This document shows positions 26,895 to 30,917 of a DNA stretch of 64,000 nt, piece after piece. This stretch comes from Candidatus Methanoperedens sp. GTDB lineage: Archaea > Halobacteriota > Methanosarcinia > Methanosarcinales > Methanoperedenaceae. Positions within the stretch are counted from its first letter, which is position 1. Every line of letters begins with the position of its first letter. Position numbers and translations under genes: made by a program. The notes under the pieces were generated by a model, which saw only the letters and a list, made by a program, of their open reading frames with translations, did not search any database and had not been told where the DNA came from. The DNA lies in the NCBI GenBank assembly GCA_012026795.1, contig VEPM01000014.1, positions 1 to 64,000 of the forward strand. The letters are read 5' to 3'.

Positions 26895-26919
26895 ATAAGA
26901 CTTCATACTTACCTTTGAC

Positions 26920-26991
26920 GTCCGGGCCGGGATTTGAACCCGGGTCGGAGACTCGACAGGCCTCCATGATAGGCCGCTACACTATCCGGAC
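26920..26991 (-). tRNA. tRNA-Asp (GTC)
   Basis: The minus strand folds as a 72-base cloverleaf. The acceptor GTCCGGA pairs with CCCGGAC, the D-arm is GTGTAGCGGCCTATCAT, and the anticodon stem GAGGC/GTCTC surrounds the loop CTGTCGA with anticodon GTC. The T-arm is CCGGG-TTCAAAT-CCCGG. No intron is present and CCA is not encoded. Base pair 7-66 is A-C, a mismatch in an otherwise perfect acceptor stem. A TATA-like gcttaaatgc lies upstream near 27017-27027. Confidence 0.93.
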
Positions 26992-27063: not shown

Positions 27064-28122
27064 TCATTGCGTCTTTATCTCATACCCATCAAACATCTTT
27101 CTCATAATAGTATCCTGGCATGTGCCAAATCCCGGCGTTGCGATCTTTTGGCCGTCCAGGTCATCAATCGAATTAATATCAGAATCCGCCCTGACGACAA
27201 GGGAAGTCCCTCCTGAATTCACACCACTTACAATATGTATCCGCCCATTGTCATTTATTTTATATCTTAAAAGCACGGAGGTTCCCACTACTGCAGCATC
27301 AACTTCCCTGTGATTTAATGCTTCTGTTACTGCCCTGCCGCTCCTGTAACCCGTTAATTGCAGATTCTTCCCTGTAATAAGACCGACCTTCTCAAAATAA
27401 CCTCGTTTCTGAGCTACATATATTGCAAAGTAATGTGAATTTCCTTCTATATATCCAAACCTGAGGCTCCCATTAACACGGGGCGGAATCCAGTTTGGGT
27501 CTTCATCCAGTTTTTTTCTTACTTCATCATAATATTTATTAATATATAATTTAGAGAGAAAATCATCAACATCTCTATATCCCAGAGAAGTTATATTGTT
27601 CTTTAAGACATCGGCTTTACTCATAATGTCAATGGCTTTTTTTGTTTCGTTAAGATCGGGATATTCTATATAAACAGTATTATTGATGACTGCTGATGTC
27701 ATATTTTCATTAATTCCTGAGAATTCCTGCCCATATTCCAGGACTATTTCCCGGTTTATCGGATTATTAATGAATCTTGTTCCTTTAACTTCTGCCCAGA
27801 CCAGGGCTTTTATCATATCTTCATCCTTCAGGTCTTCTGATATAGCCAGCACGCATGATGGGTGGTTCTCCCAGATATCCCTGGAATTTACAAGATACCT
27901 GCCATAACCCTCGGAAACTGCTCTTGAAGGGTTTGGCTCCCATGAAATAAAACCCGCAATGGAATTATTCACAAGCGCCTTTGACATCTCATCTGCTGTC
28001 ATCGACACAACAAAAATTGATTTTTGGTTATTGTGTATGGCAGTTTTTCCGGATATTCCATAGAGAATGAATCCTGAGGCTACTACCAATACGATCGCAC
28101 CTAATACAATATAATTCTTCAT
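27064..28122 (-). CDS. apparently circularly permuted NMT1/SsuA-type solute-binding protein
   Basis: The 352-residue protein has an N-terminal signal anchor (~4-24). Residues ~35-200 look like the C-terminal lobe of a NitT/TauT-family binding protein (MSKALVNNSIAGFISWEPNP, then the mixed helical tail). Residues ~218-352 look like the N-terminal lobe (SLRFGYIEGNSHYFAIYVAQ, GRAVTEALNHREVDAAVVGT, DDLDGQKIATPGFGTCQDTI). Normal proteins run N-lobe then C-lobe; here the order is swapped. No permease or ATPase is adjacent. It follows a histidine kinase by 7 bp, so it is more likely a sensor partner than a transporter subunit. Confidence 0.72.
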   Translation of the reverse strand: MKNYIVLGAIVLVVASGFILYGISGKTAIHNNQKSIFVVSMTADEMSKALVNNSIAGFISWEPNPSRAVSEGYGRYLVNSRDIWENHPSCVLAISEDLKDEDMIKALVWAEVKGTRFINNPINREIVLEYGQEFSGINENMTSAVINNTVYIEYPDLNETKKAIDIMSKADVLKNNITSLGYRDVDDFLSKLYINKYYDEVRKKLDEDPNWIPPRVNGSLRFGYIEGNSHYFAIYVAQKRGYFEKVGLITGKNLQLTGYRSGRAVTEALNHREVDAAVVGTSVLLRYKINDNGRIHIVSGVNSGGTSLVVRADSDINSIDDLDGQKIATPGFGTCQDTIMRKMFDGYEIKTQ

Positions 28123-28129
28123 ATCATTA

Positions 28130-29935
28130 TCAACCTTTCTTTAATTTGAAACTGAAAGTACTGCCCTTCCCGGGTTCACTTTCTACATGAATTACGCTTC
28201 CATGAGCCCTGATAATTCCGCTTGATATAGAAAGCCCGAGTCCACATCCGCCCGTTTTTCTCCTTGAAGAACTGTCAACCTGATAAAACTTATCAAATAC
28301 CTTTCCAATTTTTTCTTTCTCAATCCCGATACCTGTGTCTTTCATACTGACTTCTATCCCGTCAGCATCTTCTTTTGCGCTAAGGGTAATACTTCCACCA
28401 TCCGGAGTAAATTTTAATGCGTTCTCAAACAAATTATTCACCACAATTATAAGCTTTTCCATATCAGCCATAACAGGGGAAAGATTATCCGGAACGTCCA
28501 TGATTATGGATATATTTTTTTTAAGGGCAACCTGTTTTATGTTCTCAAACGATGCATCTGCTACATTCCTTATCCCGATAATATCCAGCTTGAGTTCTGT
28601 CTTGCCTGCTTCGATCTTTGACAGGTCAAGAATATCATTTATGAGCCTGGTCTGGCGGTCAATATTTCTCAGGATTATCTGAAGTATCTCTTTCCGGTCA
28701 GCAGGAGCGATATTTGCATCAGATTCGAGATACTCAGCTGAGATCTTCATGGACGAAAGAGGTGTTTTCAACTCATGGGAAACAAGAGAAATAAAATCAG
28801 ATTTCAGTTCATCTAATTTTTTCAATTCTTGATTTGCGGCGATCAGTTCTTTATTCTTTATTTCAAGATCTTTATTTGCTACATCAATTTTTACTTCAAG
28901 CTTTTTCCTTATATCCAGGAGTTCACTTGCGGTCGAATTAAATATCTCAGTGAGTCTTCCTATCTCATTCATGGAAGTGATTGGTATTGACTTGAAATTT
29001 CCGTGAAGCAATCCAAGAGCACCATCTTCAAGAGATTTGACGGGTCTCGTGATGTTGTTGGAAACAACTAAAGCAAGAAGGATCACCCCCATTACTGCCA
29101 GAATTGAGATGCCGACCATCTCCTGCCCCAGTATAAGTGTGCCTGCATAGGCTTCATCAATATTCTTTTCTGTAATGAGTCCCCATCTGTAAAGGGGAAG
29201 CCAGTAATAGGAACCAAGCACATCTTCTCCTTTATAATTTACATATTCCTTGATACCGTTTTTTTCATATGTGACTTCCCTGACTGCGAAATTATTATTT
29301 ATGTTATTAAGCAGGATAAGCGACTGGTTCTTGTGGAATATTATGTCTCCTTTCTGGTTGACAATAAATACCTCGCCTGATTTCCCGATATCGATCTGTT
29401 CTATTATCCTGTACAGGTTCTCAAGGCTTATTCGTGCTGCAAAGACTCCTGCTATTTCCTCATTCTTACGTATGGGATTGGTTATTATTATTTCAGGGGC
29501 ATCCGTAGTATTGAATTTATAAACATTCGATACAGACATTTTTCCCTTTGAAGCCTCGATAAAATAAGTTTCTGTTCTTTCATTTCCTGTCCGATAAATA
29601 TTAGAGAAGATTATATTCCCATCCAGGTCAAGTGTATAGAACTCCCTGTATACACCCCTGTGTTCACGTTCAAAAGTGTCCAGGAACTCTTTGAAGTTTT
29701 CTTTTTCAGTTGTTAAGATGACCCTGGACTGGGATATAACACGAATATCATCTTTTCTTGCATCCATCCAGTTGTCGATCACATTTCCGGTATTTTCGGT
29801 TGCTCCAAGCAGGTTGGACATCACCGATTGGCGGATAGCTGACTTACTGTATTCATAGGATATATAAACGACCGCGGATAAAGGTATTACTGATATGATC
29901 AAAAAAAAGATAATCAGTTCTGACCGTAATCTCAC
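28130..29935 (-). CDS. Cache-HAMP sensor histidine kinase
   Basis: The 601-residue membrane kinase has TM1 ~7-27, an extracytoplasmic double-Cache domain ~40-260 (FYTLDLDGNIIFSNIYRT, GKSGEVFIVNQKGDIIFHK) and TM2 ~268-292. HAMP ~293-345 and a coiled coil ~345-378 follow. The HisKA domain carries His387 in SLVSHELKTPLSS, and the HATPase carries the N box NNLFENALKFTPDGG, DTGIGI and GLGLSISSGI. It autophosphorylates and should pass phosphate to the response regulator immediately upstream (22 bp). The Cache ligand is unknown; the adjacent binding protein may contribute to recognition. Confidence 0.92.
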   Translation of the reverse strand: MRLRSELIIFFLIISVIPLSAVVYISYEYSKSAIRQSVMSNLLGATENTGNVIDNWMDARKDDIRVISQSRVILTTEKENFKEFLDTFEREHRGVYREFYTLDLDGNIIFSNIYRTGNERTETYFIEASKGKMSVSNVYKFNTTDAPEIIITNPIRKNEEIAGVFAARISLENLYRIIEQIDIGKSGEVFIVNQKGDIIFHKNQSLILLNNINNNFAVREVTYEKNGIKEYVNYKGEDVLGSYYWLPLYRWGLITEKNIDEAYAGTLILGQEMVGISILAVMGVILLALVVSNNITRPVKSLEDGALGLLHGNFKSIPITSMNEIGRLTEIFNSTASELLDIRKKLEVKIDVANKDLEIKNKELIAANQELKKLDELKSDFISLVSHELKTPLSSMKISAEYLESDANIAPADRKEILQIILRNIDRQTRLINDILDLSKIEAGKTELKLDIIGIRNVADASFENIKQVALKKNISIIMDVPDNLSPVMADMEKLIIVVNNLFENALKFTPDGGSITLSAKEDADGIEVSMKDTGIGIEKEKIGKVFDKFYQVDSSSRRKTGGCGLGLSISSGIIRAHGSVIHVESEPGKGSTFSFKLKKG

Positions 29936-29956: not shown

Positions 29957-30466
29957 TTAATTTTTTGCCCTTCGAAGAACACTTTTTATGCGGGCTTTCA
30001 ATTCATTAAGGTTGAAAGGTTTTGTCACATAATCATCTGCGCCAATATCCAGACCTTTAACTTTATCCCTGACTGCATCTTTCGCAGTAAGTATAATAAC
30101 CGGGATATTTTTTGTCATGGGATCTTTTTTTAATTTTTCGCACACTTCATAGCCATCCATTTCAGGCATCATGAGGTCAAGAAGTATAATGTCGGGAATT
30201 TCGGCTTTGGCTTTAATGAGCGCTTCTTTGCCATCACCTGCTCCAATGACAATGTAATCCTCGGTTTCAAGAGATCTCTTTAAAGGTAGAAGTGTATCGA
30301 TCTCATCGTCAACTAACAGGATTTTTGCTCTTTTATCTGAAAAACTTTCTATCCTTTGTGCCACTTCATCTTCAGGAATTCCAAGTATTATGGAAATCTC
30401 GGAATTAGATATTTTCTCATTTTTCTTTATTAATTCAATTATTTTATTATCTATATCCCCATTCAT
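29957..30466 (-). CDS. response regulator with N-terminal HTH and C-terminal receiver
   Basis: The 169-residue protein has a short helix-turn-helix of AsnC/Lrp type at ~5-42 (IIELIKKNEKISNSEISIIL). A full receiver domain follows at ~47-166, with acidic pocket D53/D54, phospho-acceptor Asp97 (DIILLDLMMPEMDG), Thr127 and Lys149. The common architecture is receiver first, DNA-binding second; here it is inverted. Its ATG overlaps the TGA of the winged-helix gene upstream (ATGA). It is the probable partner of the Cache kinase. Confidence 0.88.
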   Translation of the reverse strand: MNGDIDNKIIELIKKNEKISNSEISIILGIPEDEVAQRIESFSDKRAKILLVDDEIDTLLPLKRSLETEDYIVIGAGDGKEALIKAKAEIPDIILLDLMMPEMDGYEVCEKLKKDPMTKNIPVIILTAKDAVRDKVKGLDIGADDYVTKPFNLNELKARIKSVLRRAKN

Positions 30467-30768
30467 TGTTTTTCACCACCATTCATCAGGTTTTTCAGAT
30501 CATCATTGATCTTTAGCAGGTATTTAGTCAGTTCGCTATCCATATTCAGCCTGAAAACCCGGATCTGTTTTCCAAGCGGTTTTTCTGTAATTAAATTCAG
30601 TTCAAGGAGCGGCTCTATAACTCTTGATACAGTGGAATGGGAAAGGCCCGTAACTGCAGCGATCCCTGACAGGTATGTGTCATTATCCTTATTATCAAGC
30701 AAATGTTCAAGGACTACCAGCTGAGCTGTTTTGCCAAAGATTTTTTCAAGAAAATTGGGATTTTGCAT
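30463..30768 (-). CDS. winged-helix DNA-binding protein
   Basis: The protein is about 101 residues from ATG 30768 (MQNPNFLEKIFGKTAQLVVL). It has a MarR/ArsR-like winged helix: LEHLLDNKDNDTYLSGIAAV, recognition helix TGLSHSTVSRVIEPLLELNL, then a wing with LITEKPLGKQIRVFRLN, and a C-terminal helix. It leads the four-gene signalling operon and shares an ATGA overlap with the response regulator gene. It may regulate this operon or be the transcriptional output. Confidence 0.8.
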   Translation of the reverse strand: MQNPNFLEKIFGKTAQLVVLEHLLDNKDNDTYLSGIAAVTGLSHSTVSRVIEPLLELNLITEKPLGKQIRVFRLNMDSELTKYLLKINDDLKNLMNGGEKQ

Positions 30769-30917
30769 AAATAAGATTAAGATTACCCTATTGTTATATA
30801 ATAATATCCTTTTTTTAGCATCCCTATATATCAAAGTTTAATCCGTAGCTAATACTTAAATGAATCACTATATTTTCAAAAACTTGAATTTGAATATGAA
30901 GGGCTTAACCGTAAATG

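Follow-up and report, generated by a model that had tools for sequence, protein, structure and literature searches.

The window analysed here, a stretch of 64,000 nucleotides from a genome of Candidatus Methanoperedens, encodes a solute-binding protein (SBP) whose two parts stand in reverse order. The sequence evidence supports the view that this protein is one circularly permuted NMT1/SsuA-type domain. A preliminary description of the sequence had proposed a circular permutation of a NitT/TauT-type binding protein, and this proposal is upheld by the order of the Pfam matches, by the alignment of the rotated sequence and by more than 70 distinct relatives that keep this arrangement. Comparison with these relatives established the permutation, its conservation, the existence of two branches and the gene partnership of the branch to which the window protein belongs, here called type A. 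The protein is probably a permuted, membrane-anchored SBP that, when loaded with ligand, serves as a co-sensor of the dCache histidine kinase encoded with it. The gene, the parts of its product and the neighboring genes are listed in Table 1.

Table 1. The permuted SBP gene and its neighbors, with positions in the window
Feature	Position	Strand	Basis
Permuted NMT1/SsuA-type solute-binding protein (type A), 352 aa	27064..28122	-	ORF, Pfam, conserved order
Predicted N-terminal transmembrane anchor, aa ~2-24, without lipobox	28051..28119	-	Sequence
Canonical C-terminal part, placed first, aa 33-208	27499..28026	-	NMT1_2 profile 151-247; C-part HMM
Linker from canonical C-terminus to canonical N-terminus, aa 209-215	27478..27498	-	Linker median, 74 permuted proteins
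Canonical N-terminal part, placed last, aa 216-351	27070..27477	-	NMT1, TIGR01728, N-part HMM
Histidine kinase: dCache, HAMP, HisKA, HATPase	28130..29935	-	Pfam
Response regulator: winged HTH, then receiver domain	29957..30466	-	Pfam
MarR-like winged-HTH protein	30463..30834	-	ORF; weak MarR_2 match

Order of the parts and position of the break

The SBP reading frame begins with ATG and contains no internal stops. In its product, NQKSIFVVS (aa 32-40) and AGFISWEPNP (aa 56-65) come before SLRFGYIEGNSHYFAIYVAQ (aa 219-238), ATPGFGTCQD (aa 328-337) and EIKTQ (aa 348-352). The preliminary description had recognized here a C-lobe motif in first place and the start of the N lobe in last place, the reverse of the family order, and the motifs and Pfam agree on this. 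Positions 151-247 of the NMT1_2 profile (PF13379) match aa 33-127 (E 3e-21), and positions 3-117 of the NMT1 profile (PF09084) match aa 230-349 (E 2.5e-12). This order, with the profile tail before the head, was obtained independently of our own alignments. Similarly, positions 1-120 of the NCBIfam model SsuA_fam (TIGR01728) fall on aa 220-341. An HMM of the C-part, built from an alignment that included the window protein itself, covers aa 33-208 (E 2e-84), and an HMM of the N-part covers aa 216-351. In PDB searches, the first part of the protein resembles the C-part of CmpA, CmpC, NrtC and NrtA, and the last part resembles the start of SsuA, TauA and THI5. By both Pfam and HMM matches, the order of the parts is thus the reverse of the canonical order of NMT1/SsuA-type SBPs.

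The profile of the window family (A1) was compared by hhalign with ten normal-order archaeal SBPs in its native and in a rotated form. In the native order, two separate local matches were obtained, with scores of 202 and 183, in which columns 186-314 align with template columns 2-125 and columns 3-179 with template columns 132-301. The gap between the two template stretches is six columns, indicating that no portion of the domain is missing. The rotated sequence gave a single match of 293 columns, which extends the homology across the whole NMT1/SsuA domain. Its score of 378 (E 5.7e-55) is near the sum of the two native-order scores, and the results for four alternative cut points were below that of the chosen rotation. 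Together, the Pfam order and the rotated and native alignments place the permuted order far beyond chance.

The new termini map to a stretch that is 5-17 aa long in normal-order proteins, and the linker that joins the old termini has a median length of 8 aa in 74 permuted proteins. The join had been thought to fall at the connection between the lobes, but what is known of SsuA-type folds does not bear this out. We take the GTCQD region to be the start of the second lobe in the SsuA fold, so the break would fall within that lobe, past its first helix.

Structure prediction added little to this picture. With ten alignment rows, AlphaFold models of the full-length and anchor-free protein had pLDDT values of 50 and 42 and pTM values of 0.37 and 0.33, respectively, and a Foldseek search with the first of these low-confidence models (pLDDT 50) returned noise matches only. 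A low-confidence model of the window protein has a helix at aa 2-24. In both models, the terminal segments alone were fairly confident, which is suggestive at most of their being neighbors in the lobe-2 sheet. Because the alignments behind both models were too shallow, the closed two-lobed fold is argued from the sequence.

Distribution, conservation and descent

A search for homologs with the same order, as the preliminary description had suggested, found at least 75 distinct permuted relatives. The genome of the window itself has three permuted copies, namely the window gene, L002 (60%) and L003 (28%). Full-length permuted matches occur in many of 100 close genomes, and profile searches at the level of class and phylum found more of them in several families. 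Besides the Methanoperedenaceae and the Archaeoglobaceae, further families of the phylum have the permuted order. The assignment of one of these families (f10) to the Archaeoglobaceae is based on an isocitrate dehydrogenase encoded near a permuted copy in genome G336. This enzyme is identical to PDB 2iv0, which is presumably the isocitrate dehydrogenase of Archaeoglobus fulgidus. The viral contigs that were scanned contained no relative of the permuted protein, and the plasmids contained no site covering 80% of it.

Among the distinct ORFs of the fetched loci, 75 have the order C-then-N, 10 have the order N-then-C and one (L117) was scored C-N-N, its N-part being split into two matches; because these loci were fetched by their matches to permuted proteins, the ratio is no estimate of natural frequencies. 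No tandem C-N-C or N-C-N forms were present among these ORFs. Pfam also gives the reversed order in L113, L003, L135 and L117. The tree built from rotated sequences unites 39 permuted rows in a single group with a support of 100/100; these rows take in type A, the transporter-linked type B, the Archaeoglobaceae and others. The permuted proteins of L117 and L135 were placed among the normal-order rows in the free tree, and a single clade of all permuted rows including this pair was not rejected (p-AU 0.29). These two proteins (L135:6082-7287:+ and L117:4093-5364:-) are far more divergent, have the same order of parts and are accompanied by an ABC permease.

Trees of each half alone, built without L117 and L135, also split the permuted from the normal-order rows. 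Between the window gene and relatives of 64-93% identity, dN/dS for the whole protein is 0.10-0.17. For three near relatives, it is 0.09-0.15 in the C-part and 0.08-0.18 in the N-part, indicating purifying selection on both. It is very improbable that the ORF joins partial domains of two different proteins or is a gene in decay, as the low confidence of the AlphaFold models might otherwise suggest. After rotation, the profile matches single normal-order proteins from end to end, the order is the same in 75 proteins, and the separation of the permuted set by each half, together with similar purifying selection on both, argues against two unrelated fragments. Unrelated fragments and gene decay were both rejected on the rotated alignment, the half-wise separation and the dN/dS values.

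Elsewhere in the family, decay remnants of type A with stops or in fragments were seen at L119:998-2379, G018:C43:123116-123505, G004:C12:38751-39047 and G017:C19:36519-36725. In genome G014, the C-part of an SBP is fused to a kinase remnant lacking most of the sensor and catalytic part.

Kinase-linked and transporter-linked branches

The 75 permuted ORFs comprise 31 of type A and 44 others. None of the 31 type A proteins has a lipobox; they possess a predicted N-terminal transmembrane segment instead. Among the other proteins, a simple pattern detects a lipobox in 37 of 44. Type A genes lie directly downstream of a dCache-HAMP-HisKA-HATPase kinase gene at 30 of 31 loci, and their loci contain no permease, while a same-strand downstream permease was found by tblastn for 41 of the 44 others. 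The type A and transporter branches separate cleanly. Most permuted archaeal relatives are therefore tied to ABC importers, and the branch of the window protein is tied to a sensor kinase. The window protein has neither the form of a secreted lipoprotein nor the operon with permease and ATPase that characterize the SBP of an ABC importer, and type A has the conserved adjacency to a membrane sensor kinase that is expected of a co-sensor.

No permease or ATPase genes were seen near the window SBP gene among the ORFs and Pfam matches of the locus. The genes for the response regulator and the MarR-like protein overlap by 4 bases, and a tRNA-Asp (GTC) gene lies just downstream of the SBP gene on the - strand (window 26919-26991). 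The kinase operon without transporter genes noted in the preliminary description is thus real at this locus, but it does not characterize the permuted proteins at large. Permuted relatives with a transporter exist, and one of them is encoded in the same genome, where the SBP, permease and ATPase genes of the type B operon (L003/L076) overlap or abut.

The first 250 residues of the kinase, its sensor region, were searched in 34 genomes. This yielded 21 near full-length matches with 60-100% identity, and all 21 lie beside type A. Other long matches have at most 26% identity, except for short kinase gene ends in G014 and G046, which likewise adjoin type A. Genomes G001, G002, G011 and G013 possess neither the kinase sensor nor type A. 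In L077 and L084, the kinase and SBP genes overlap by four bases, stop on start. The type A and kinase genes form a firm partnership.

The partnership bears on what type A does. If type A were an orphan importer SBP for a permease encoded elsewhere, for example in the type B operon, the kinase would sense something else. The type B protein is likewise permuted and has a complete operon in the same genome, and motifs are common to the two branches, but the identity of type A to type B is ~28%, type A has no lipobox, and its gene accompanies a single kinase type at nearly all loci and stands beside every near full-length kinase sensor, which makes an orphan importer unlikely. Constant association with a kinase would also be expected of a structural or inhibitory membrane-anchored accessory that has lost ligand binding. 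This is distinctly unlikely, given that both halves are under purifying selection and that the motifs of the transporter branch are retained: across the two branches, each of the 75 permuted proteins has WEP/WQP and WxxHP, and 68 also have a GxGTxQ-like motif. Ligand binding by type A is inferred from the same motifs.

Several neighboring genes deserve mention. In the genome of the window (contig C24), a normal-order NMT1 SBP without a transporter is flanked by a pair of large PAS hybrid kinases (L078:2498-9681), an independent instance of an NMT1-type SBP associated with kinases. A gene for an XRE-type HTH protein of 160-180 aa is found close to SBP operons of permuted as well as normal order (L075:2457-2975, L082:4971-5489, L122:4764-5297, L128:3006-3527, L138:5333-5875 and L141:7270-7761), which suggests one regulon common to both kinds of operon. 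Additionally, an IF-2B family gene (mtnA-like, similar to methylthioribose-1-phosphate isomerase) adjoins four permuted transporter operons (L123:8760-9794, L124:2140-3189, L127:1396-2442 and L128:9438-10463). As a lead only, this neighbor is a possible clue to a sulfur-containing ligand. Family resemblance is likewise a lead to the ligand class and appears closest to the sulfonate-type binders.

Proposed function and comparison with known systems

The ancestor was presumably an archaeal ABC importer SBP, which was probably permuted when its gene was duplicated in tandem and the outer half of each copy was lost. The new termini would then have come to lie within the second lobe. Most lineages would have kept the permuted protein as an importer lipoprotein. 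In the paralogous branch of the window protein, the permease partner may have been lost, with a transmembrane anchor taking the place of the lipobox. As a co-sensor, the window protein would be anchored in the membrane by its N-terminal hydrophobic stretch, and ligand would close it outside the membrane. It may then act on the dCache domain of the kinase, from which phosphate would pass to the adjacent HTH-receiver regulator. Two points stand against the co-sensor reading. The dCache domain of the kinase could bind ligand unaided, and an intact type A copy in genome G008 (L072:1462-2553:-) has no adjacent kinase. A broader proposal, possible but doubtful, is that an old and widespread permutation of the archaeal SsuA/NMT1 SBPs shifted the anchor out of the first lobe and onto the second, after which one branch became a dedicated co-receptor of a dCache kinase. 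The permutation would then set which lobe faces the partner in the membrane and may have opened the way from import to signalling.

In Methanoperedens, which oxidises methane, the window protein is a candidate for an extracellular sensor. It belongs to a large archaeal family with the same new ends, in which import and kinase forms exist beside normal-order relatives. In such a family, the effects of permutation on lobe closure, anchoring and the choice of partner can be tested. Because of their permuted order, such proteins are annotated as two partial NMT1 matches. No earlier description of a permuted NMT1/SsuA SBP was found in the open literature, which is not proof of absence.

The window protein is homologous to the SsuA/TauA/NMT1 SBPs over its whole mature length. 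These SBPs are encoded in SBP-permease-ATPase operons, as is the permuted type B. In contrast, the parts of the window protein are reversed, and type A has no lipobox or transporter and is paired with a kinase. The best matches of its first part among solved structures, including the W/E-P and HP region, are CmpA, NrtA and the regulatory domains of CmpC and NrtC. The bicarbonate and nitrate binders CmpA and NrtA have the canonical order and match strongly only the C-part of the window protein.

Bacterial SBP genes located beside the sensor kinases that the SBPs activate have been documented, including the systems near AgtS and AruS of P. aeruginosa (PMC11113362). The window locus resembles these systems in that genes for an SBP and a sensor histidine kinase lie close together. 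However, the window SBP is archaeal, is permuted, carries a predicted transmembrane anchor of its own and is a candidate activator of its kinase.

ABC binding proteins that are circularly permuted in nature have rarely been described, and the single precedent found is of type I. TpMglB-2 (Tp0684) of Treponema pallidum is a natural circularly permuted ABC glucose-binding protein (PMC4990184). It is membrane-tethered and has relatives of the same topology in treponemes and Gram-positives, and its authors remarked that tethering to the membrane may be what this topology is adapted to (PMC4990184). The window protein has in common with TpMglB-2 that an ABC binding protein was permuted in nature, that related proteins share its topology and, as predicted, that it is held at the membrane. 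TpMglB-2 is a bacterial sugar binder of type I/cluster B (class type Ic) that is permuted within the N lobe, whereas the window family is NMT1/SsuA-like and archaeal. Pfam, NCBIfam and PDB searches with the window protein gave no MglB-like matches, and its matches are NMT1/SsuA/Cmp/Nrt-like, outside the type Ic class. Overall, the window family is of a different lineage from TpMglB-2, is archaeal and includes a kinase-linked branch.
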